Shown here one piece after another: positions 2,732 to 21,915 of a stretch of DNA of 31,696 nt. Position 1 is the stretch's first letter, and the number at the start of each line of letters is the position of its first letter. The notes beneath the pieces were generated by a model. It saw only the letters and a program-made list of their open reading frames with translations, did not search any database and was not told where the DNA came from. The DNA comes from a virus, in IMG/VR virus record IMGVR_UViG_3300042311_000164, positions 1-31,696 of that record, one strand, 5' to 3'. Both the position numbers and the translations under genes were made by a program.

Positions 2732-3162
2732 TTTATTTCGTCAATATCGTCTTTAACTTCTTTTGCTCTGTTTAATAACGCTTTTAGCATTTTCCAAATA
2801 TCTATTTTTAATGCTTCTTCTACGTTTTCTTTAATGCTTACAAGTTCAATAAAAATTAATAAAATAGCAACTAATTTTGTAAACATAAAATCAATAGTAA
2901 AATGTAACTTAACAAACTCGTTTAGTAAGAATTTATCAATTACATACAATAGTAAAATAGTTGTTTGGTATAATAGCATCTTGCTTATAATGTGCGATAA
3001 TCTACGTGAACGTATAGAACACAAACCATTTAGTTTAATGCTTTTAAATACACCTGTAAACGTGTCAAGAATGATACCAAAGGCTACCGCAATTAGTAGC
3101 CCTTGTATCGGTGCAAAAAATAATATTAAACCACTTAAAATATAATTAAGATATGATTTCAT
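2728..3162 (-). CDS. Holin
   Basis: A 144-aa membrane protein with hydrophobic segments at about residues 6-33, 57-80 and 93-111, and a charged C-terminal helix rich in Lys/Asp/Glu (about 118-144). Topology, size and position directly before the amidase fit the toxin-secretion/phage-lysis holin group (phage_holin_4-like), which forms the inner-membrane lesion that frees the endolysin. The start overlaps the preceding gene by 17 nt. Confidence 0.8.
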   Translation of the reverse strand: MKSYLNYILSGLILFFAPIQGLLIAVAFGIILDTFTGVFKSIKLNGLCSIRSRRLSHIISKMLLYQTTILLLYVIDKFLLNEFVKLHFTIDFMFTKLVAILLIFIELVSIKENVEEALKIDIWKMLKALLNRAKEVKDDIDEIK

Positions 3163-3520
3163 TATTTACGTTTTCAAATCTTAATAATTCAATTGGTCCG
3201 TCTGCGTCTTGTTCGTAACCCGCAAACGAATGACAACAATTCTTTGGGAATATTTCAGCACTTCCAAAGTCTATTTTGTCAATACTCATAACATCGTAGT
3301 GGTAACCATCTGCATATATTGGCTCTTCGATAACTTCCATTCCATCCATTACAGGTGGCGTAATCATTATTAAACCAATTTCAACTACTGCTTGTATTCC
3401 TTGTCCGTATTGTAAGGTAATTTCTTTTTCAAGGTTTTCTACTTCAATATAAACTTTCTTAGCTAATAAGTCAGCTATAGCAGTTTCTTTATCTGTGTAT
3501 TTTAATTTTGCTATGTTCAT
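3146..3520 (-). CDS. Unknown protein between tail fibre and holin (124 aa)
   Basis: I recognise this protein type from Bacteroidetes phages but know no function. The N-terminal 35 residues look like a short strand and helix, the middle is hydrophobic and beta-rich, and a Cys-Cys-His group occurs around residue 95. No signal peptide or membrane segment. Start overlaps the tail fibre stop by 1 nt (TAATG), and its end overlaps holin by 17 nt, so it belongs to the fibre-lysis transcript. A fibre-associated or assembly role is a guess from position. Confidence 0.75.
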   Translation of the reverse strand: MNIAKLKYTDKETAIADLLAKKVYIEVENLEKEITLQYGQGIQAVVEIGLIMITPPVMDGMEVIEEPIYADGYHYDVMSIDKIDFGSAEIFPKNCCHSFAGYEQDADGPIELLRFENVNNEIIS

Positions 3521-5142
3521 TATATAGTTGTTAATTGTGCTAATTCTGAATTGCTTAAACGTGTTTTGAATAATAAAGAAGTATTTACACTCATTGCTTC
3601 TATATAAGTATTAAGATTTTCAGCATAACTAAAATAACTCATACTTTGGTCTATAAAAGAACAACTTGTGTCAGTAGCTACTTGAACACCATTTTTATAA
3701 ACAACTACATCATTGTTTTTATAAGCAATGGCTATTTTATATCTACTTCCAATTGATACACCACCAACGGATAAATAAAACACATTAATTCCGTTATTAT
3801 TACCCAAAGCATATAAAGCGGTATCGTCACATCTTAAATCAATTTGAGCAGTACCCGATACGTTTCTTAATTGACTTAATATTTGAAATGTCTTATTGTT
3901 TCTACAAACAAAATCAATAAACATAACACCCTCTGTTTGACCAATTAAACTACTTATTCCTGTTTTAGAAATAACGTCTGCATTACGAGTCACAGAACTT
4001 GCTATTGTTGGAATGTAACTTGTGGCGTAACTTCCTACCTCAAATTGAGCACCCCAAAAGTAAAGAGTTTCATTACTACCAAATGGTAAAATCTGAACAT
4101 TACCTGTTCCACCTGAAGTAAAAGTTCTTGTTAATATTTGCCTAAACCAACCATTTCCAACATTTATTGAAGAATAAACATCAGTTCCACTTAAACTTGC
4201 TCCACCAAATATAATTTTTTGAGTTGCTGTTTTACTATAAATAGAAAAAGTTGCACTTACTGCAGATGTTATTGATTTTAATTGATATAAATAACCATTT
4301 AAACCAAATACAACTTTATCAGCATTTTGTGTACCATCGGGACTAATAACATTATTTGCAGTTACTGTAGCATTTGAGCTTGCTGAAGTCCACGCTGAAT
4401 TATCAAATTGTTCGCTATAAGTAACTAAATTCGTTCTCTGAGGCTCAACTAAAATACTCGGACAACTTGAATTTGTATAATCTAATCTCGGTACGTCTAA
4501 TCTATCAGTTGTAGGAAAGTATTCAGTAGCAGTTGAACCATTATCAATTTGAAATCCCCAAGCATAAAAATCAGGTGCAGCGTCTGCTCCTGTTACTAAT
4601 GTGCTATTACATAATTGAGGCTCCTCATTAACTGCAGCAGCATTTGATGTAAAAGTATATCTTACCCATTCATTAGTAAAACTCCAAATTGCAGAAAATC
4701 CATTTTGACCACTTCTTATTCCAACTTTACCTGTTCCACTTACTGATTTTATCCAACAACTAAAAGTATATGGTTGTCCAACTGTTAAACTTTTTCCTGT
4801 ATTAGATTGTAATATTCGTGCGTTTGTAGCTGAATTAATTTGTATCCTGTCGGCTGTTAATGTTCCGTTTGGAGCAGTAGTTGCGTTTGCAGTAACAGTT
4901 GTATTTGGTTTGCTCCACGCAGCATTATCAAACTGCTCAGAATATTGAACTAAATTTCTCGGTACTACTTCAATAAGTCCGTCACTATTAACTCTCGTTG
5001 CAGTCGTTGCTCTTGTTACGGCTAAACTAAAAGCCGTTTTTGGCAATACTCCTATTTCAAAATCAGGTTTTAACGTGTAAAGTTTGTCCTCTTTGTAACC
5101 CGAAGGCGTAATAACTACAGAAGCACTATCAAATAAACTCAT
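3520..5142 (-). CDS. Tail fibre / receptor-binding protein with repeated lectin-like modules
   Basis: A 540-aa probable adhesin. Residues 1-60 are an attachment-type region ending in TRATTATRVNSDGLIEV. Two copies of a carbohydrate-binding-like module follow: one begins NLVQYSEQFDNAAWS (about 63), the other NLVTYSEQFDNSAWT (about 240). Each has a [AS]PDGT-like turn and ends with a FYAWG/LYFWG strand (FYAWGFQIDNGS, LYFWGAQFEVGS). From about 390 the protein looks like a concanavalin/LamG-type beta sandwich. Cysteines are few and no membrane segments occur. It is the best candidate for the host-range determinant. Start overlaps the 78-aa gene by 4 nt. Confidence 0.72.
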   Translation of the reverse strand: MSLFDSASVVITPSGYKEDKLYTLKPDFEIGVLPKTAFSLAVTRATTATRVNSDGLIEVVPRNLVQYSEQFDNAAWSKPNTTVTANATTAPNGTLTADRIQINSATNARILQSNTGKSLTVGQPYTFSCWIKSVSGTGKVGIRSGQNGFSAIWSFTNEWVRYTFTSNAAAVNEEPQLCNSTLVTGADAAPDFYAWGFQIDNGSTATEYFPTTDRLDVPRLDYTNSSCPSILVEPQRTNLVTYSEQFDNSAWTSASSNATVTANNVISPDGTQNADKVVFGLNGYLYQLKSITSAVSATFSIYSKTATQKIIFGGASLSGTDVYSSINVGNGWFRQILTRTFTSGGTGNVQILPFGSNETLYFWGAQFEVGSYATSYIPTIASSVTRNADVISKTGISSLIGQTEGVMFIDFVCRNNKTFQILSQLRNVSGTAQIDLRCDDTALYALGNNNGINVFYLSVGGVSIGSRYKIAIAYKNNDVVVYKNGVQVATDTSCSFIDQSMSYFSYAENLNTYIEAMSVNTSLLFKTRLSNSELAQLTTI

Positions 5143-14725: not shown

Positions 14726-17072
14726 CTTGTTCTATTATTATTTGGTCATTTAAATTACTTGTTATAGTTGCTATTTTAGGCAATCCCGTAACGTTTGCTT
14801 TTACTTGTACGTCAACGTATGTATCACCGTTTAATACTCCTGTTAGCATATCGTCTTCATCAGTTTCTATTGTCCAAGTTAATGGATCAATTGAAGTAGT
14901 ATTGAATCGTAAAGTTTTAACTGTGTTATCAGTTATTCTTAAAGAACTATTGTCGTAATTGATACTTCTAAAATCTTGTATTAGTTCAAAGTCACTTTCA
15001 AACGTTGTTAAATCAGTTGTGAATTGGTTTATGATATATCGTTTATCACGTATTACAATTCTATCGTTTAATTTTAAATTCAACAATTCTAAATAAGGTA
15101 AACGCATTTTAACTTTTACCATTCTTGATTTTATACTATAAAGGTTATTTAAATAATCTAAATAGTAATTAGCAAACAACGTTCTGTAAATGTTTTCAAA
15201 ATATACAGTACTTACTTCAACACCCCAATTTAATGTGTTAGTTTCGTTTCTATTTACGTTTACATCAGCTCCGAATACATTTGCGTAATTAAAATTAAAT
15301 GCAGGATTTACACCATCGCTAAAATGCCAATCAACATCAAACGATTGTCCACCTGTATAATATAAAATAACACCTTTTGGTTTAAATGGTTTTAAATCGG
15401 GTTTAAACGCATAACCTACTTGTGGTAATGAAGTTGTTGAAGGTGTATTGTTCCAATTATTAAATAATAAATTCTCAAATGGTAATTGAATTGTGTAATC
15501 GCTACCATCGTTAAAGAAAGCATAGTTTAAATCGCCATACTCTCTTGCATTTCTATCGTAGAAAGTTCTGTTTAAAACGCTTTCGTTTTTTTGATATTTA
15601 AAATCTATTTTCTTGTATGGTTTTATTCTTGAGTAATCAAAATCAGTAGTTGTGTAACCGCTAAAATCTTTTATATCACCTAAGAAATACCAATTCTCCA
15701 ATTGTTCAATAGTAAAGTTAACACCATCTTCGCTATAACAAGTTAGGTTAAACATTTTTAAAACACCTGCAAAAAATTCGCTTACTTTCATATCAGGTGC
15801 AATAACTGCCAAGTCAATTAAGTTATCCATAACAATAGAACCACTATCACTAAAGGTTGTTTGTAAACCATCTGTTGGTTGTCTTGGATTACTTACAATA
15901 AATTGATTTGCGTTATAAGTATAGTTAAAAGTAGGAGTAGTTAAAGTAAATGCTTTTTTAATTGTAAAATGAAAAACTCCTGTTCCTGTTTGTGAGCCTA
16001 AAGTATAACTGATTGAATTGGTAACGCCTTGAATTGAACCAAAGAACGCACCATCTTTATAAACAGTTAGTGTCATATCATAATTAGTAGCACTTGTAAC
16101 GTTAATCGTAAAAGTTCCGTTGTTTTCAAATCCTACTGCAGTAACTGTGTTGTTTGTAGCATCAGCGTAAAAGTTACCATCATTTTCAGTAGCTTGTATT
16201 TCAATTCTACGTTCTGCACTTGTCATTGTGTACGTTTCAGCTTCGTTATTCTTTAACCATAAATAAGCCTTAGTAAAACGTTCATCATCTAAAAATACAC
16301 CATTAAAGTTTACACCATATCGTGTTTCAAACGCATTGAATATCAAAGGCAATTTAATTGCAGGAAATAACTCGTTGTAAACAATTGGTGTACTACTTGA
16401 TGTTGGAGAATCAGCACCTGCATCCCAAGTTCTTTTGCTACTAATTAAAGGAAACATTACGCCTGTTTGTGAGGCGTCTAACGGGAATGTAACTAATTCA
16501 GCAACCAAATCACCACTATACGGAAGGCTATAATCGTTTAATTCTTTAACGTCTTGTAATTTTTCATCACCAAATTTATCACTCAATGATTTTAATTCAC
16601 CATAGAAAGTTATTTTGTAATCTTCAACACGATTGTTTTTTACACTTGCAGATTCTAATTGCCATTTACCACTTCTGAAAGTTTGCGTATCAATTTCAAT
16701 GTAACCATCATATCTTATTCGTTGGTCAAATCCGTTGTCTAAACTATTTTCGTACCAATGTCTAAATATTTCGTTATTGTTTGCACTTGCAGGAATTGTA
16801 AAACTTTGCGAGTAATCTGTAAACACTTTTGAAATATCGTTAACGTTTTGAATTGACGAAGTAACAGAAATCTTTTCATCGTCAAATAATTCTATACGAT
16901 TGTAAGTTTCTAATTCTGCAAAGCTATTGCCTAACGATTCAATTGTGCTTGTTAAACAACTACCTGCTTCAAATGTGCCACCATTAGCTTCAACTCTATT
17001 TATAAAGTTTGTTAACGTAGCAACATTTGCATTTTGATATTTAGGTGTTTTAATATATAAAGCTACTGTCAT
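14718..17072 (-). CDS. Large tail protein (distal tail or baseplate-like)
   Basis: A 784-aa beta-rich protein. Residues about 23-45 (FINRVEANGGTFEAGSCL) share the GTFEA-x2-CL motif with the 78-aa gene. Residues 55-170 look like a distal-tail N-terminal domain (IELFDDEKISVTSSIQNVND, later ITFYGELKSLSDKFGDEKLQ). The middle has many Tyr/Phe/Asn strands, and the C-terminal part (IVIRDKRYIINQFTTDLTTF) resembles baseplate hubs. Placement before the tape measure suggests a tail tip. Assignment by architecture only. Confidence 0.68.
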   Translation of the reverse strand: MTVALYIKTPKYQNANVATLTNFINRVEANGGTFEAGSCLTSTIESLGNSFAELETYNRIELFDDEKISVTSSIQNVNDISKVFTDYSQSFTIPASANNNEIFRHWYENSLDNGFDQRIRYDGYIEIDTQTFRSGKWQLESASVKNNRVEDYKITFYGELKSLSDKFGDEKLQDVKELNDYSLPYSGDLVAELVTFPLDASQTGVMFPLISSKRTWDAGADSPTSSSTPIVYNELFPAIKLPLIFNAFETRYGVNFNGVFLDDERFTKAYLWLKNNEAETYTMTSAERRIEIQATENDGNFYADATNNTVTAVGFENNGTFTINVTSATNYDMTLTVYKDGAFFGSIQGVTNSISYTLGSQTGTGVFHFTIKKAFTLTTPTFNYTYNANQFIVSNPRQPTDGLQTTFSDSGSIVMDNLIDLAVIAPDMKVSEFFAGVLKMFNLTCYSEDGVNFTIEQLENWYFLGDIKDFSGYTTTDFDYSRIKPYKKIDFKYQKNESVLNRTFYDRNAREYGDLNYAFFNDGSDYTIQLPFENLLFNNWNNTPSTTSLPQVGYAFKPDLKPFKPKGVILYYTGGQSFDVDWHFSDGVNPAFNFNYANVFGADVNVNRNETNTLNWGVEVSTVYFENIYRTLFANYYLDYLNNLYSIKSRMVKVKMRLPYLELLNLKLNDRIVIRDKRYIINQFTTDLTTFESDFELIQDFRSINYDNSSLRITDNTVKTLRFNTTSIDPLTWTIETDEDDMLTGVLNGDTYVDVQVKANVTGLPKIATITSNLNDQIIIEQDA

Positions 17073-18046
17073 TATATTACATCGTTAATTAAACCAAAGT
17101 TGTATTCAAATTCTATTTCGTAATTGATAACCTTATTGTTTAAACTTGTTTTCTTTTCGCTCGATTTTGATTTAACTACTGCAGGTTTACCACCCAATAA
17201 AACAGTTTCACTCAAAAGCAAATCCTGTATTAATTCAAAGTAGTTTTCATCAACCCAACCTGTGTTACATTTGATTGAGTTTTTACCTTGATGATTAAAG
17301 CGTTGTTTCTGCCCTTGTAAGACGTTATAATCTATACTTGAAGGTAACATATTAAACTCTTTATAATCTGTCTCTATTGACTCCATAGACGCTTTAAAGA
17401 ACGTAAGGAATTGCCAACCACCATAACGATTTACAAACGTGCAAGTAATTGGTGTATATTTAGGTTCACAAACTTCAGTTGAATAATATTCATAATACTC
17501 ATCTGAAATTAAATCTTCAGTAAGTGGTATCTTATAAATACTTTCTTCGTCAACAGTTAACGTTCCATAATCTGTTATTTCATAAGTACCTTGTTCATAG
17601 AATACATTAACATACGGCACAATAGCATTTGTTTTTTGAATCGTTATATTATAGTTAACTAAAGGCACAACTATATTAGTATTGCTTTGATTAAATCCAC
17701 CTGAATAAGCATTGTATCCATTTAAACAAACGTAAGTTTCATCGTTAATTTCTACATCATCAGAATACGATATTACTTGCATATAACACCAAGTCTTGTC
17801 TGATTCTTCAGTTGGCGATTCAACAACTACAGGTGAAACAGGTTTAATAAATTCCTTTGCGTAGTTTGATATGTTCCAACTTAATTTGTTTTGGTTTGTA
17901 CTTGGTACGCTTTTAGTTAACGTATAAGTTGGCACACTTGGTTTTGTGCTTTCTTTATTCCAAATGTATAGTTCAACTTTTCCTGTTGTTTGTGCTTCTT
18001 CATCTATTTCGATAAAGTACGGACTGCGAATAAATATTTTCTTCAT
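17072..18046 (-). CDS. Tail component (324 aa)
   Basis: A beta-rich protein beginning MKKIFIRSPYFIEIDEEAQT, with several Cys and Tyr/Trp residues in the middle and a hydrophobic strand pattern through residue 290. The FVNRYGGWQFLTFFKASMES segment (about 210-229) is typical of a Bacteroidetes-phage tail protein I have no name for. Starts within TAATG of the gene above and couples to the 784-aa protein the same way. It may be an adaptor between tail tube and tip. Confidence 0.65.
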   Translation of the reverse strand: MKKIFIRSPYFIEIDEEAQTTGKVELYIWNKESTKPSVPTYTLTKSVPSTNQNKLSWNISNYAKEFIKPVSPVVVESPTEESDKTWCYMQVISYSDDVEINDETYVCLNGYNAYSGGFNQSNTNIVVPLVNYNITIQKTNAIVPYVNVFYEQGTYEITDYGTLTVDEESIYKIPLTEDLISDEYYEYYSTEVCEPKYTPITCTFVNRYGGWQFLTFFKASMESIETDYKEFNMLPSSIDYNVLQGQKQRFNHQGKNSIKCNTGWVDENYFELIQDLLLSETVLLGGKPAVVKSKSSEKKTSLNNKVINYEIEFEYNFGLINDVI

Positions 18047-18552
18047 TATTTTGTAATTGTATATTTTAAAAATTGTTCTACATCTAAACCATAGGCTTCA
18101 ACTAATTCATCGGGTAAACGTTCAAATGCTTTTTCAAATGGTTTGGTAAAAAACAAACTTGGCTTAATTCCGTTTTTAAATATTCCACGAGTAATTAAAA
18201 ATGCAGTTGATTTGTAAGACATAAACTTTCCGCTTTCTGTTCTAAATTGGAAGCCTCGTCTTTTTACCCAATCCTCAATTGGTTTTAAAGGTGGTCGTTT
18301 GCTTTTGTAACTAAACGGAGTATTGTATTTCTTTTTAGTACCACTAACACCTTTGTCTTGAAACACACCATAATCTTCCATTAAGAAAGTAATTCTAAAA
18401 CTATTAGCACTTACTTCAATATCAGCATCAAGTGAATTGTAAAGGCTTTTATTTACGTTCTTGCCTTGCTTAGATAAATTACTTCTACTCTGCTGAATAA
18501 CATATTTAGCAAAGTCATTTAGATATTTGTATGTTTGTTGTTTATCTTGCAT
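18046..18552 (-). CDS. HK97 gp10-like tail completion protein
   Basis: A 168-aa protein with the gp10-like pattern: helical N-terminus, then MEDYGVFQDKGVSGTKKKYN (about 58-77), a proline-rich loop (KRPPLKPIEDWVKRRG), and KPSLFFTKPFEKAFERLPDE before the C-terminal helix. Such proteins close the head-tail interface. Directly follows the terminator-like gene (TAAATG), consistent with a neck cassette. Confidence 0.7.
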   Translation of the reverse strand: MQDKQQTYKYLNDFAKYVIQQSRSNLSKQGKNVNKSLYNSLDADIEVSANSFRITFLMEDYGVFQDKGVSGTKKKYNTPFSYKSKRPPLKPIEDWVKRRGFQFRTESGKFMSYKSTAFLITRGIFKNGIKPSLFFTKPFEKAFERLPDELVEAYGLDVEQFLKYTITK

Positions 18553-18975
18553 TTAGCAAATCGTTACGTCGTTTCTTACTAATACATCAAACGTTACTGC
18601 CCAACCCGCTAAATCGTTTTCAAATCGTTCTGTAAATGGTTCAAACGTTGGGTTACCGGTTAACTCCCAAAAGTCACTACGCAAATCACCTCTGTTTAAT
18701 CTATTTAAAACTCGTGTGCCTACTAACATTTGTGTGTTCCAAATATCAACTTTATTATCATCGTCTTTTTGATTGATAACGTCCATTAATAACATTGTAA
18801 TATTAAACGATAACACATTACCTTGATGCGTTGCTTGGTTAATAATAATGTGGCTTAAAGGAAACATTGTTTGTTTGTTTAAATCAACTGCAAATATATC
18901 GCCCTCTGTAACTGTATTTACAAATGGTTCGTCCAATAATGCTTCTTTGATTTCTCTAATAATTCTATACACCAT
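18553..18975 (-). CDS. Tail terminator-like protein
   Basis: A 140-aa alpha/beta protein, MVYRIIREIKEALLDEPFVN at the start, then strands (FPLSHIIINQATHQGNVLSF) and a C-terminal strand set (LAGWAVTFDVLVRNDVTIC). Size and position next to the gp10-like gene fit tail terminators that cap the tube (gpU type). Its ATG lies inside the end of the -1 frame product, implying coupling to that product. Moderate confidence. Confidence 0.55.
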   Translation of the reverse strand: MVYRIIREIKEALLDEPFVNTVTEGDIFAVDLNKQTMFPLSHIIINQATHQGNVLSFNITMLLMDVINQKDDDNKVDIWNTQMLVGTRVLNRLNRGDLRSDFWELTGNPTFEPFTERFENDLAGWAVTFDVLVRNDVTIC

Positions 18976-19219
18976 TTCTTTTTATATTTTTAATTTCTAT
19001 TTCTGTTTTTTCCTTTTCAAACATTAACCAAGTCATCAATTGTGTTATTGGTAGTTTGGTAACTGAATTGAATCGGAGAATATCGCCTTGAGCTGCTGCG
19101 TAAATTGATTGATACCAACCCCATTTTTTTCCAAAACCTGCTTCGCTTGTTCCGACTGTTCCACTTCGTTCTGTATATAATGGCTCAAAGCGTTCCCGCA
19201 ATCGTTGAGCAAAGTCCAA
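18965..19219 (-). CDS. -1 frame extension of the tail chaperone (gpGT-like C-terminus)
   Basis: 84 codons in the -1 frame relative to the 220-aa gene, overlapping it for 175 nt. There is no ATG; the only start is a TTG lying in the slippery run itself, so frameshifting is the natural way to express it. Translation moves from codon Phe163 into LDFAQRLRERFEPLYTERSG, giving a fusion of about 247 aa. The segment GWYQSIYAAAQGDILRF and the charged end look like real protein. The stop overlaps the next gene's ATG by 11 nt. Confidence 0.72.
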   Translation of the reverse strand: MDFAQRLRERFEPLYTERSGTVGTSEAGFGKKWGWYQSIYAAAQGDILRFNSVTKLPITQLMTWLMFEKEKTEIEIKNIKRNGV

Positions 19220-19707
19220 AAAAAAAGCATAGAACCAAGTGCAATATCTAAAGGCATATACTTTAAAACCTCAGCATACTTGTCTGCAGCCTCGTATTCT
19301 TCTATGATATATAAATCTTTAACCTTGCTTTTAATTGGTCTAAAAAGTACTGCCATTGCTTTGTGCAACGTTTCAGTATCGGATAGGTAGTTTTCTAAAT
19401 CAATATATTCACCCGAAGTAATATCTTCTAATTTAGGAATAAAACCAAACTCGTAAACACCAAGTTTAAATGTTCTTGTTAGTTTAGGTTTCGCTTGTAG
19501 TAATGTGTTTAAATGTGCAAGTAAAGAATCAATATCTGCTATTCTTATACGTGCAACGTCTTTTAATTCAATACCGCAAAATATTTCAATTGTCTTTTGG
19601 TTTACAAAGTGACTTGCTTCGTTATTTTGTATTAACCTTTCAAACTTTTGGTATTGATATAAAGTAATTTCGTTTAATGAATCCGGTACATTAATATCTA
19701 CTTTCAT
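19045..19707 (-). CDS. Tail assembly chaperone, zero-frame product (gpG-like)
   Basis: A 220-aa protein starting MKVDINVPDSLNEITLYQYQ, helical with a few strands (LGVYEFGFIPKLEDITSGEY in the middle). It opens the tail operon. At codons 160-163 (MLFF) the mRNA has nine U, where ribosomes can slip -1 into the 84-codon frame, as lambda G/GT does. After the site the zero frame continues for 57 codons (WTLLNDCGNALSHYIQNEVE onward). Function assigned from the frameshift, operon position and size. Confidence 0.68.
   Translation of the reverse strand: MKVDINVPDSLNEITLYQYQKFERLIQNNEASHFVNQKTIEIFCGIELKDVARIRIADIDSLLAHLNTLLQAKPKLTRTFKLGVYEFGFIPKLEDITSGEYIDLENYLSDTETLHKAMAVLFRPIKSKVKDLYIIEEYEAADKYAEVLKYMPLDIALGSMLFFWTLLNDCGNALSHYIQNEVEQSEQAKQVLEKNGVGINQFTQQLKAIFSDSIQLPNYQ
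19218..19226 (-). promoter_or_regulatory. -1 ribosomal frameshift site (U9)
   Basis: mRNA CUUUUUUUUUGG read as ATG CTT TTT TTT TGG. A U-UUU-UUU heptamer allows simultaneous -1 slippage onto TTT TTT TTG GAC. A sequencing indel in the homopolymer is the main alternative. Confidence 0.72.
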
Positions 19708-19765
19708 TTTTTATTTTAAAAATTAAGTAAACGTGTTATTGTATAAAACTAAAATGCATAGCATT

Positions 19766-19799
19766 TAAAAACAAAAAGACAACCATTTCTGATTGTCTT
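19766..19799 (-). terminator. Intrinsic terminator of the structured RNA
   Basis: On the minus strand AAGACAATC pairs with GGTTGTCTT (9 bp including one U-G pair, 6-nt loop) and is followed by TTTTTGTTTTT. The G-U pair exists only in the minus-strand RNA, and the T run is only on that strand, so the upstream transcript runs high to low. It lies before the tail operon start (19707). Confidence 0.88.
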
Positions 19800-20158
19800 A
19801 ATGTAGTTAATTACCACCACGAAGCGTGTAATTGGGTGGACTGCTGAACTCACGCCCTATTAACTATCAAAATAACTTTATTTAGCACCCCTCTTATGGA
19901 TATGTCAATTCATTTCTTTAATAACCGTTGCACGTATACAACTTGGTCATAAGAGTAGGGTCACGTAGTTAATTTCACTTTCGAAGTTTCTATTGTTCGC
20001 TTCAGTATTACATCATTAACTACTTGCTGAGAACTCATTTGCATTGTTGGAGCATTATAATTGTGCATAATTATAATGTTAAGCTTTCTCAAGGCTTCAA
20101 TACATCTACCATTACTGATAGTATCTTTATGTGAATATATAGGGTTTCCCACATATAA
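19766..20158 (-). ncRNA. Candidate structured noncoding RNA, about 390 nt
   Basis: No convincing gene occupies this stretch. It has its own -7 element at the 5' edge (20163-20170) and a strong terminator at the 3' edge. Paired arms, 5' to 3' on the minus strand: 20150-20160/20125-20133 (9 bp, 2-nt bulge); 20117-20121/20106-20110 (5 bp with a G-U pair only in this strand); 20081-20097 closing on a GAGA tetraloop; 20069-20078/20053-20062 (10 bp, perfect); 20015-20023/19965-19973 (9 bp); 19948-19961/19887-19898 (12 bp, 2-nt bulge, with an inner ACCGTTG hairpin); 19859-19866/19804-19811 (8 bp) enclosing CCACC/GGTGG. TAGTTAAT and its complement occur twice each, allowing alternative pairing. I match it to no known RNA family. 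Confidence 0.72.
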
Positions 20159-20162
20159 AGCA

Positions 20163-20170
20163 CAAAGGTA
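20163..20170 (-). promoter_or_regulatory. -7 element of the structured RNA
   Basis: TACCTTTG on the minus strand fits TAnnTTTG exactly and lies 2 nt before the first helix, placing the 5' end of the RNA at that helix. The upstream -33 region is weak: TTTG is 25 nt away, outside the usual range. Confidence 0.6.
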
Positions 20171-20183
20171 TTCAATGTTTAAC

Positions 20184-20393
20184 CTAAACTAACTTCAAAT
20201 TTAATACTTCATACAATTCAAATACTTTATTCGTTAAAGTTTCGTCTTGTTTATATTTATCGTTTCCTATTTTCTTTGCACCATTTACGTTGATTTCTAT
20301 TTTAACGTAATTGTATTTTCGTTTGCCTACAAAATAAGTATCATCTATTACTATTGGGTAAATAGTGATTCCGTTATTCAGACAATTCTTCAT
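20184..20393 (-). CDS. Small unknown protein (69 aa)
   Basis: Starts at the ATG giving MKNCLNNGITIYPIVIDDTY; a GTG five codons upstream is possible but less likely. It is basic and beta-rich in the middle (YNYVKIEINVNGAKKIGNDK), with a helical end. Overlaps the 45-aa membrane gene by 20 nt. No family recognised. It ends 14 nt before the -7 element of the structured RNA. Confidence 0.65.
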   Translation of the reverse strand: MKNCLNNGITIYPIVIDDTYFVGKRKYNYVKIEINVNGAKKIGNDKYKQDETLTNKVFELYEVLNLKLV

Positions 20394-20511
20394 CGCTTTT
20401 AAGTTCACGATATATAAGATAAAAGGTTAATATTGCAAATGCTCCTTGAACTAAATAATCACTACTTGCCATTGTGATTGATGCTGATAATACTCCTGTA
20501 ATTGTTTTCAT
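20374..20511 (-). CDS. Small membrane protein (45 aa)
   Basis: MKTITGVLSASITMASSDYL then a hydrophobic segment (about 20-35, GAFAILTFYLIY) and an acidic C-terminus. One membrane helix. A longer reading from an ATG at 20583 is rejected because that ATG lies inside a promoter box (20575-20582) and the region between contains the promoter. Follows a promoter with the shared TGTTAA boxes. A small early membrane protein, e.g. host-takeover or anti-lysis, is speculation. Confidence 0.62.
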   Translation of the reverse strand: MKTITGVLSASITMASSDYLVQGAFAILTFYLIYRELKSDEELSE

Positions 20512-20529
20512 AATTGTTATTGTTTGATG

Positions 20530-20593: not shown

Positions 20594-20749
20594 TTTCACC
20601 ATATAAGAAACATTCTGTTTAGCTACTTCATACATTGCTTTCATTTTCTTTATTTCACCTACATTACGAGGCATAGCTATATTTACATTTTGATTTGTAA
20701 TTAAATAAATGTAGCATTCAATTGTAGCAATGATTTCTCCGTACGTCAT
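20588..20749 (-). CDS. Small unknown protein after TerL (53 aa)
   Basis: MTYGEIIATIECYIYLITNQ followed by a basic helical half with several Met (NVGEIKKMKAMYEVAKQNVS). The ATG overlaps the TerL stop (TAATG), so it is cotranslated with the terminase. No family recognised. Confidence 0.68.
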   Translation of the reverse strand: MTYGEIIATIECYIYLITNQNVNIAMPRNVGEIKKMKAMYEVAKQNVSYMVKC

Positions 20750-21915
20750 TAATAAATATAATAGTTTCCTTTGTGTGGATTTTCTAACTGTGAAGTCATA
20801 GCATAACGCATTGCGTCAATAGCGTGATTGTAAGCATCTATTGGCTTGTTCATCTTGTTACCTTGTTTATCTACCATCCAAATATAGTTTCTTAACTCGT
20901 TGATTAAGTTCTTACTTCTTGATGTAACGTAAACCTTATTCTGATTAATTAAATTAAGACCATATACGATACTATCTCTACCTTTGCTAACAGGTAACAC
21001 ATTATGCCCGTAACTATTCAACTCAGCTATTGATTTTGGCTCTGCACTATCGGCATAAACAATATCGTTTACACCATTTGTTTTTAGTAAGTCACTAATA
21101 TCAGAATTTAATAAACCTTTCTGATAAATCAATTCATCAAAGATATAAGCATCGTTGTATTTATACATAGCTACTAAACTTGTTGGGTCGTTACTGTAAC
21201 CCCAATCCATTCCGTAACATAACAACCTTGCTTCAGTTGGTAATTGTATTTCTTGCCAATCAGGAATACATACACCTTCTAATGAACCTGTTAAACCTAA
21301 ACCATACACTTGCCACCAATTAGCCCAATACGATGAAGTCTTTGCTTTTTCTTTTGCTGATTCAATTTCTTTTACTATTGTATCAGATAATGCTTCGTTG
21401 TCTAAATATGTTAACGTAATAAAGTCAACATCTTCTTGATTTATTATTTCTCTATCTACCCAAAATAAACTTGATGGGTTATAATCTAACCATATTTCGC
21501 CACTTGTACGAATAGCTAATTGATAATAAGAATCAAAGTCTACATTGTTACATTCGTTAACATATAATACATTACGTCTTGCACCTCGTAGTTTATCAGG
21601 TTGGTCAACACTAAAGAATTCAATATAACTACCATTAACGAAAGTATATTTTAAAGTTGATTTGTTAAATTGGTTATCGTTGTACCTGCCTAAAGCCATC
21701 ATTATTTTTAAGAAGTCTTTTAATGCACCTCTTCGTAAATGTGGTATTGATTCTGATACCACACTAATTTCTAAATCAGGTGTCTTAATTGCTCTATCTA
21801 TTAGTATAGGTAAAATAGAAAAGGTCTTAGAAGCAGATGTACCACCTCTAACAACCTTTATACGCTTTTTAAGACGCAATAACTTCTTTAATGCAGTAGT
21901 TATTATAAATTCCAT
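20749..21915 (-). CDS. terL: Terminase large subunit (TerL)
   Basis: A 388-aa packaging motor. N-terminal ATPase: Walker A GGTSASKT at 24-31, Walker B VLYVNEC with Glu121 at 116-122, coupling region IWLDYNPSS about 141-149. C-terminal RNase H-like nuclease: Asp237 in YGMDWGYSND, Asp289 in IVYADSAEP, and Asp360/Asp367 in IDAYNHAIDAMRYAM. The terminase_3 (PBSX-like) group fits best. The TerS candidate lies 9 nt upstream. Confidence 0.95.
   Translation of the reverse strand: MEFIITTALKKLLRLKKRIKVVRGGTSASKTFSILPILIDRAIKTPDLEISVVSESIPHLRRGALKDFLKIMMALGRYNDNQFNKSTLKYTFVNGSYIEFFSVDQPDKLRGARRNVLYVNECNNVDFDSYYQLAIRTSGEIWLDYNPSSLFWVDREIINQEDVDFITLTYLDNEALSDTIVKEIESAKEKAKTSSYWANWWQVYGLGLTGSLEGVCIPDWQEIQLPTEARLLCYGMDWGYSNDPTSLVAMYKYNDAYIFDELIYQKGLLNSDISDLLKTNGVNDIVYADSAEPKSIAELNSYGHNVLPVSKGRDSIVYGLNLINQNKVYVTSRSKNLINELRNYIWMVDKQGNKMNKPIDAYNHAIDAMRYAMTSQLENPHKGNYYIY

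Follow-up and report, generated by a model that had tools for sequence, protein, structure and literature searches.

Between the gene for the terminase large subunit (TerL) and the tail genes of a virus recorded in IMG/VR (IMGVR_UViG_3300042311_000164; its positions 1 to 31,696, the whole stretch analysed, are called the window here), a first-pass annotation had described a structured non-coding RNA on the minus strand. The locus thus raises the questions of what this RNA is, where it begins and ends, and whether its place beside a packaging gene says anything about its role. Compensatory changes in 62–77 distinct homologues uphold the description itself. The window RNA belongs to a family of functional RNAs that is almost certainly real and that appears to be undescribed so far.

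Extent of the RNA beside terL

We found no conserved gene in 19708–20183, as the first-pass annotation had supposed. The sole open reading frame of at least 60 aa in the region (19961–20152, 63 aa) is not conserved, and across 68 distinct relatives the arm lengths showed no 3-base periodicity and no frame was kept open; a protein-coding gene was rejected for want of a conserved reading frame. The minus strand of 19766–20170 folded at −96.4 kcal/mol, against a mean of −81.6 kcal/mol for shuffled sequences (z = −2.60; 2 of 100 shuffles were as good), while the plus strand departed less from its shuffles (z = −1.66).

Relatives of the window phage were collected via TerL, whose best named matches are in Flavobacterium phages (55% identity), and via a tail-side gene. 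The RNA is a discrete insertion, because the close relative L162 lacks exactly the interval from 19881 to 20184 (Table 1). Window positions 16512–19880 and 20185–20525 are 91% and 94% identical to uninterrupted L162 DNA, the interval between them has no counterpart, and nothing is missing on the L162 side. The comparison shows, at the level of sequence, that the window phage acquired the RNA, a member of an inherited and horizontally acquired family, as a single 304-nt block. The element starts with GGUUAAACAUUG and ends with GGGGUGCUAAA, both of which are conservation borders in unrelated phages too, and its first G is borrowed by the stop codon of the upstream 74-aa open reading frame. Imperfect repeats of ~13 bp flank the insertion (window 19860–19884 and 20183–20200; AAGTTAGTTTA and AAGTTATTTTG).

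Table 1 Positions in the window of the inserted RNA, its parts and the neighbouring features
Feature	Position	Strand	Sequence or description	Basis
Downstream conserved ORF (g220)	19045..19707	-	220 aa, no assigned function	phrog_32199, E 4.1e-19
Intrinsic-terminator-like hairpin and T run	19772..19799	-	Belongs to the phage locus	Sequence
Native hairpin cassette of the window's phage group	19804..19866	-	Possible H-type pseudoknot	CGUG/CACG and CCACC/GGUGG
Inserted RNA element	19881..20184	-	GGUUAAAC...GGGGUGCUAAA, 304 nt	Unmatched gap in the alignment of the window with L162
Arm 4	19880..19962	-	GACCC-UA-CUCUUAU...AUAAGA-GGGG-UGCUAAAU	Folding and end pairing
Arm 3	19963..20025	-	Hairpin on AGUAGUUAA/UUAACUACG, optional across the family	Matches arm 3 of L247
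Conserved strand	20026..20039	-	AAUGAGUUCUCAGC; 20027-20033 (UUCUCAG) is predicted pseudoknot strand 2	Conservation
Arm 2	20040..20104	-	Basal helix UGUAUUG/CAAUGCA, bears hairpin H4	Compensatory changes
H4 loop	20085..20093	-	CUUGAGAAA, predicted pseudoknot strand 1	Complementarity to 20027-20033
Small hairpin H2	20106..20121	-	CUAUC-AGUAAU-GGUAG	Compensatory changes
Arm 1	20125..20166	-	Exchangeable hairpin, foot UUUG	Own ends pair better than swapped
Hairpin P0	20167..20184	-	GGU-UAAACAUUGAAU-ACC, loop UAAACAUUGA nearly invariant	Two-sided stem changes
Upstream ORF	20184..20408	-	74 aa	Conserved in close relatives
TerL	20749..21915	-	Terminase large subunit	PHROG phrog_2, E 3.4e-35

These borders revise the earlier picture of a self-contained unit of ~390 nt. 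The stretch 19804–19866 is a separate hairpin native to the phage group, found without the RNA in L162, L101, L166, L005 and others. The supposed promoter at TACCTTTG is the junction of P0 and arm 1; it changes when arm 1 is swapped and the RNA persists, and what was taken for a −7 element is the foot of that arm. A hairpin with a T run does stand where a strong terminator had been called, and relative L003 keeps it with altered yet complementary bases, but it belongs to the phage locus and, like the native hairpin, is present in relatives without the RNA. With the promoter structural and the terminator native, and with only 6 of 61 related elements followed by TTTTT within 80 nt, the idea of a unit carrying both was abandoned. 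The paired copies of TAGTTAAT and ATTAACTA, read before as allowing alternative folds, form the bases of two distinct hairpins, arm 3 and the native cassette. Since relatives have either of these hairpins without the other, alternative folds may form but need not be assumed.

Core and arms of the RNA

Four arms (three in some copies) project from an almost invariant core. Read from 5′ to 3′, the hairpin P0 comes first, followed by arm 1, the hairpin H2, arm 2 with H4, the predicted pseudoknot strand UUCUCAG, arm 3 where present, arm 4 with its ACCC/GGGU foot, and the tail GCUAAA. The covariation for which homologues had been proposed as a check is present: in a first set of 62 distinct sequences, 98.0% of 1426 cells were paired, double-change cells numbered 117 versus 15.7 ± 3.5 in shuffles, and slid registers fell to 37–47% paired. 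A second set (77 distinct sequences) was chosen largely without regard to H2 and aligned by fitting to the model, which favours pairing; it gave 277 double-change cells versus 48.8 ± 8.0.

Among the 62 sequences, H2 showed double compensatory changes in all five of its pairs with 100% of cells paired, and the basal helix of arm 2 showed compensatory changes at 7 of 7 pairs with 99% of cells paired; H2 varies much more in the independently selected set. Stem variants of P0 in relatives include GGU/ACC, GGC/CC, CGU/ACG and GCU/AGC, and its stem scored a mean of 4.6 versus 4.3 with swapped partners, a modest contrast. We recognise members of the proposed family by covariation in the helices of P0, H2 and arm 2 and by loops that hardly vary. 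In H2, 51 of the 62 sequences have U-G at one pair, which would read C-A in the opposite transcript; since U-G is the commonest state of this pair, the RNA strand is the minus strand of the window, as first proposed. The H4 loop is predicted to form a pseudoknot with 20027–20033. Complementarity and conservation speak for it (98.4% of cells paired in the 62 sequences, with zero double compensatory changes), and the second pattern scan itself selected for part of the H4 loop and for pseudoknot strand 2.

The ends of arm 1 pair at −5.65 kcal/mol versus −3.32 kcal/mol when swapped, those of arm 4 at −6.53 versus −4.57 kcal/mol on the invariant ACCC/GGGU foot, and arm 4 alone folds at −20.1 kcal/mol. 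Arm 3 is missing in L170, L172, L179, L212 and others, where CAGC abuts UUGACCC.

How much do the arms matter? The main rival to the reading we develop below would be a scaffold of the ROOL/GOLLD type, in which the core functions, for example by self-assembly or ribosome binding, and the arms are dispensable, changing by neutral drift and recombination. We regard this as a serious possibility that nevertheless falls clearly short of even odds. It would accommodate arms that vary freely in length and sequence around constant core loops and that can shrink to almost nothing; the smallest natural form, L170, has 157 nt, with arm 4 reduced to a 3-nt loop. It also has precedent in ROOL and GOLLD, phage RNAs encoded near tRNA islands, which assemble as homo-oligomers; GOLLD has a conserved and a variable part (PMC12286853). 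Like them, the present family is carried by phages, is highly structured, lies near tRNA or tmRNA genes (in part of the family, not in the window) and has no known protein partner. It differs in that the element does not reach the gathering score of the Rfam covariance models and in size, 157–414 nt versus about 660 and >800 nt. The setting is comparable to that of ROOL and GOLLD; the sequence is unrelated.

Distribution of the family and exchange of its arms

The exact 19-mer UACUAUCAGUAAUGGUAGA, common to the window and its relative L142, occurs in 63 viral contigs, nearly all of which bear the same RNA, and a second pattern retrieved at least 119 stretches; both scans selected for conserved stretches, which in part explains why those exact stretches are invariant. 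The covariance model R1 is limited to H2, arm 2 and the strand that comes next, and a match need not be a complete element; the model recovered 62 of the 63 first loci and, among the matches listed, 88 of 91 further loci. In total, relatives were found with a covariance model of the arm-2 region in at least ~150 IMG/VR contigs of 4–373 kb and in the cultured Cellulophaga phage phi14:2, which R1 matches with E 4.4e-12.

In phi14:2 (L231), a crAss-like phage, the RNA lies at about 3058–3378 (+) of record KC821624. It overlaps gp007–gp009, three hypothetical proteins on the opposite strand that are probably spurious; the RefSeq copy marks these features as removed. A second model match in this phage (L333, E 0.007) was dropped, being weak and situated in apparently protein-coding sequence. 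Tandem double copies of the element were seen at L257:4085–4529 (+) and L276:8424–8868 (−).

The family was seen in phage records only. A blastn search with the window region against phages gave no match, nor did a search of plasmids. Across 50,697 phage records, credible blastn matches were confined to Cellulophaga phages; a single weak match in Streptococcus virus MS1, to one arm only, was discounted. A scan of one genome per species (84,980 species) for one exact 18-mer, which diverged host copies would escape, returned five GTDB hits, all unrelated sequence without the element. A likeness of the A-block to terL coding DNA in L013, L033 and others (7–8 mismatches in 31 bases) was judged to be chance in coding sequence. 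Rfam 15, at gathering score and at loose E-values, gave nothing relevant in the window, in agreement with the first-pass impression that the RNA fits no recognised family, and no Rfam match was found at the element in 14 related loci and L189. No earlier description of the RNA was found in the open-access literature.

Comparison of elements indicates that the arms have very probably been swapped between phages one at a time, as units. Of 49 pairs of elements that have all four arms and at least one arm in common, 44 have just a single arm in common (arm 2 in 14 cases, arm 4 in 12, arm 1 in 9 and arm 3 in 9). The window is itself an example: its arm 3 shows 95% identity over 63 nt with that of L247, in which the type of arm 2 differs, and its arm 1 is 81% identical to that of L220. 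Cassettes also change position. Arm 1 of L312 and arm 3 of L217 share a 53-nt cassette at 98% identity, and arm 1 of L190 matches arm 3 of L207 at 93%. To our knowledge, no separate exchange of arms is on record for GOLLD or ROOL.

Furthermore, cassettes occur free-standing. The native cassette of the window's phage group stands alone in 12 loci and elsewhere forms an arm 3; it is ~80–90% identical to arm 3 of L204, L209 and L223. At its pseudoknot positions, L204 has GUGU/ACAC and CCUCC/GGAGG, with pairing judged by eye. Other arm-3 cassettes stand alone in the slot between terL and g220 (L018:2758–2812, L070:4027–4083 and L076:3866–3923), against 2 hits in a control with reversed arms and 1 in a minus-strand control. 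The phages phi4:1 (L328:3001–3100) and phi17:2 (L329:3001–3098) have an arm-4-like hairpin in an unannotated gap, apparently without the rest of the element.

Such exchange could be no more than neutral recombination between peripheral helices that tolerate change, as a core-only scaffold would have it. What stands against dispensable arms is that some cassettes retain their sequence in another arm or free-standing, which suggests that the cassettes themselves are maintained.

Genomic setting and possible roles

A packaging role had been suggested for testing from the position of the RNA near the terminase gene, and the phi29 packaging RNA had been named. A DNA-packaging RNA partnering the neighbouring terminase would suit an element 565 bp downstream of terL, and the phi29 RNA is likewise a structured phage RNA. 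The wider sample leaves this proposal next to no chance. A covariance-model match was present in only 1 of 98 relatives collected by TerL or the neighbouring gene, and many of the 97 model-negative relatives have a TerL 94–98% identical to that of the window, so that presence does not track the terminase. In L142 the same RNA lies elsewhere, between a tRNA-shaped gene and the 74-aa open reading frame; most members of the family lie in other places, where tmRNA and tRNA genes are the neighbours most often recognised; and Rfam gave no match to any packaging RNA. The one positive among the 98, L079, has a partial element (4472–4572, +; arm 2 and the next conserved strand) in the terL–g220 slot, followed by its own terminator-like hairpin.

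The neighbourhood also bears on an action in cis. As a 3′-UTR element of the terminase operon, acquired by chance, the RNA would serve the stability or termination of the upstream transcript; it does lie between operon and terminator in the window phage, and in related phages this slot is occupied by single hairpin cassettes of other kinds. We consider this improbable, as neighbouring genes differ across the family (no protein family within 2.5 kb at more than 12 of 68 distinct elements) and a close downstream T run is as infrequent as stated above.

Part of the family is associated with stable RNA genes. Among the matches listed, 14 of 115 distinct elements (L169, L172, L173, L179, L206, L207, L214, L217, L223, L232, L250, L254, L258 and L282) had a tmRNA gene downstream, starting 87–311 nt from the UUCUCAGC strand and always on the same strand as the element, with none upstream and none opposite. 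tRNA genes lie near some other elements. The tmRNAs, which contain pseudoknots, are adjacent to the element and do not overlap it; they are separate genes, and neither Rfam nor ARAGORN recognised the element as a tmRNA. Neither tool found a tRNA or tmRNA in the window, for which the translation setting is taken from relatives. Phage T4 offers a further parallel, its tRNA cluster encoding the stable non-tRNA RNA species C and D of unknown function; blastn in 50,697 phage records gave no similarity between these and the element.

The orientation of the tmRNA genes, invariably downstream on the same strand, also argues against a selfish mobile DNA element, a palindromic repeat with no function as RNA. 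A precisely bounded insertion block whose parts also occur separately, flanked in the window by imperfect repeats, would fit such an element. Over the family, however, the flanking repeats scored a mean of 5.58 versus 5.26 for swapped flanks (sd 0.15), a marginal difference, and a DNA palindrome leaves the mostly U-G pair of H2 unexplained. We hold this reading to be very improbable.

Several elements contain stretches that by eye resemble tRNA T-arms and D-arms (L173 arm 3, L186 arm 1 and L168 arm 4). In arm 3 of L173 (~2006–2093, +), a T-arm-like stretch precedes a D-arm-like one, the reversed order resembling a permuted tRNA fragment. We also noted 19 distinct tRNA-Leu-shaped RNAs, for example at L142:617–719 (+), L168:4163–4288 (+), L212:1424–1538 (+) and in three copies in L290 (−), in which acceptor, D-arm and T-arm are conserved and the anticodon arm is replaced by very different stretches. 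ARAGORN called a tRNA in only 4 of the 19. They are candidates for a second scaffold with variable inserts, and comparison of their cassettes with the arms of the inserted RNA gave no match.

We propose that the RNA may be transcribed from the minus strand within a longer RNA and may act in trans, not on one neighbouring gene. It would work as a scaffold whose constant core binds a constant partner, for which another copy of the RNA, the ribosome or tRNA machinery, or a widespread host protein are candidates. The arms would offer variable binding surfaces, most plausibly as decoys or inhibitors, and host variation would drive their turnover. That the family, its structure and the exchange of arms go together with action in trans seems likely to us; a trans-acting scaffold in a translation or stable-RNA setting has, in our estimate, slightly less than an even chance; and arms serving as decoys against host defence would be a rather doubtful extension. 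On a broader view, which we offer tentatively and consider unlikely as a whole, phages of Bacteroidota would share a pool of hairpin cassettes moving between the arms of a constant scaffold, free-standing sites and possibly tRNA-shaped carriers, a modular RNA display recombining under host pressure, with cassettes that might serve, for example, as interchangeable host-defence decoys or inhibitors.

Phage RNAs that are structured but have no known function are few, and surprises have come from them repeatedly. The 157-nt minimal natural form suits structural work, and a member exists in the cultured phage phi14:2. The tmRNA and tRNA genes beside part of the family direct attention to translation or to defences aimed at it, and the arm-by-arm exchange suggests RNA evolution through recombining structural modules. 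Should the arms prove to be decoys, a host target would be indicated by each cassette.
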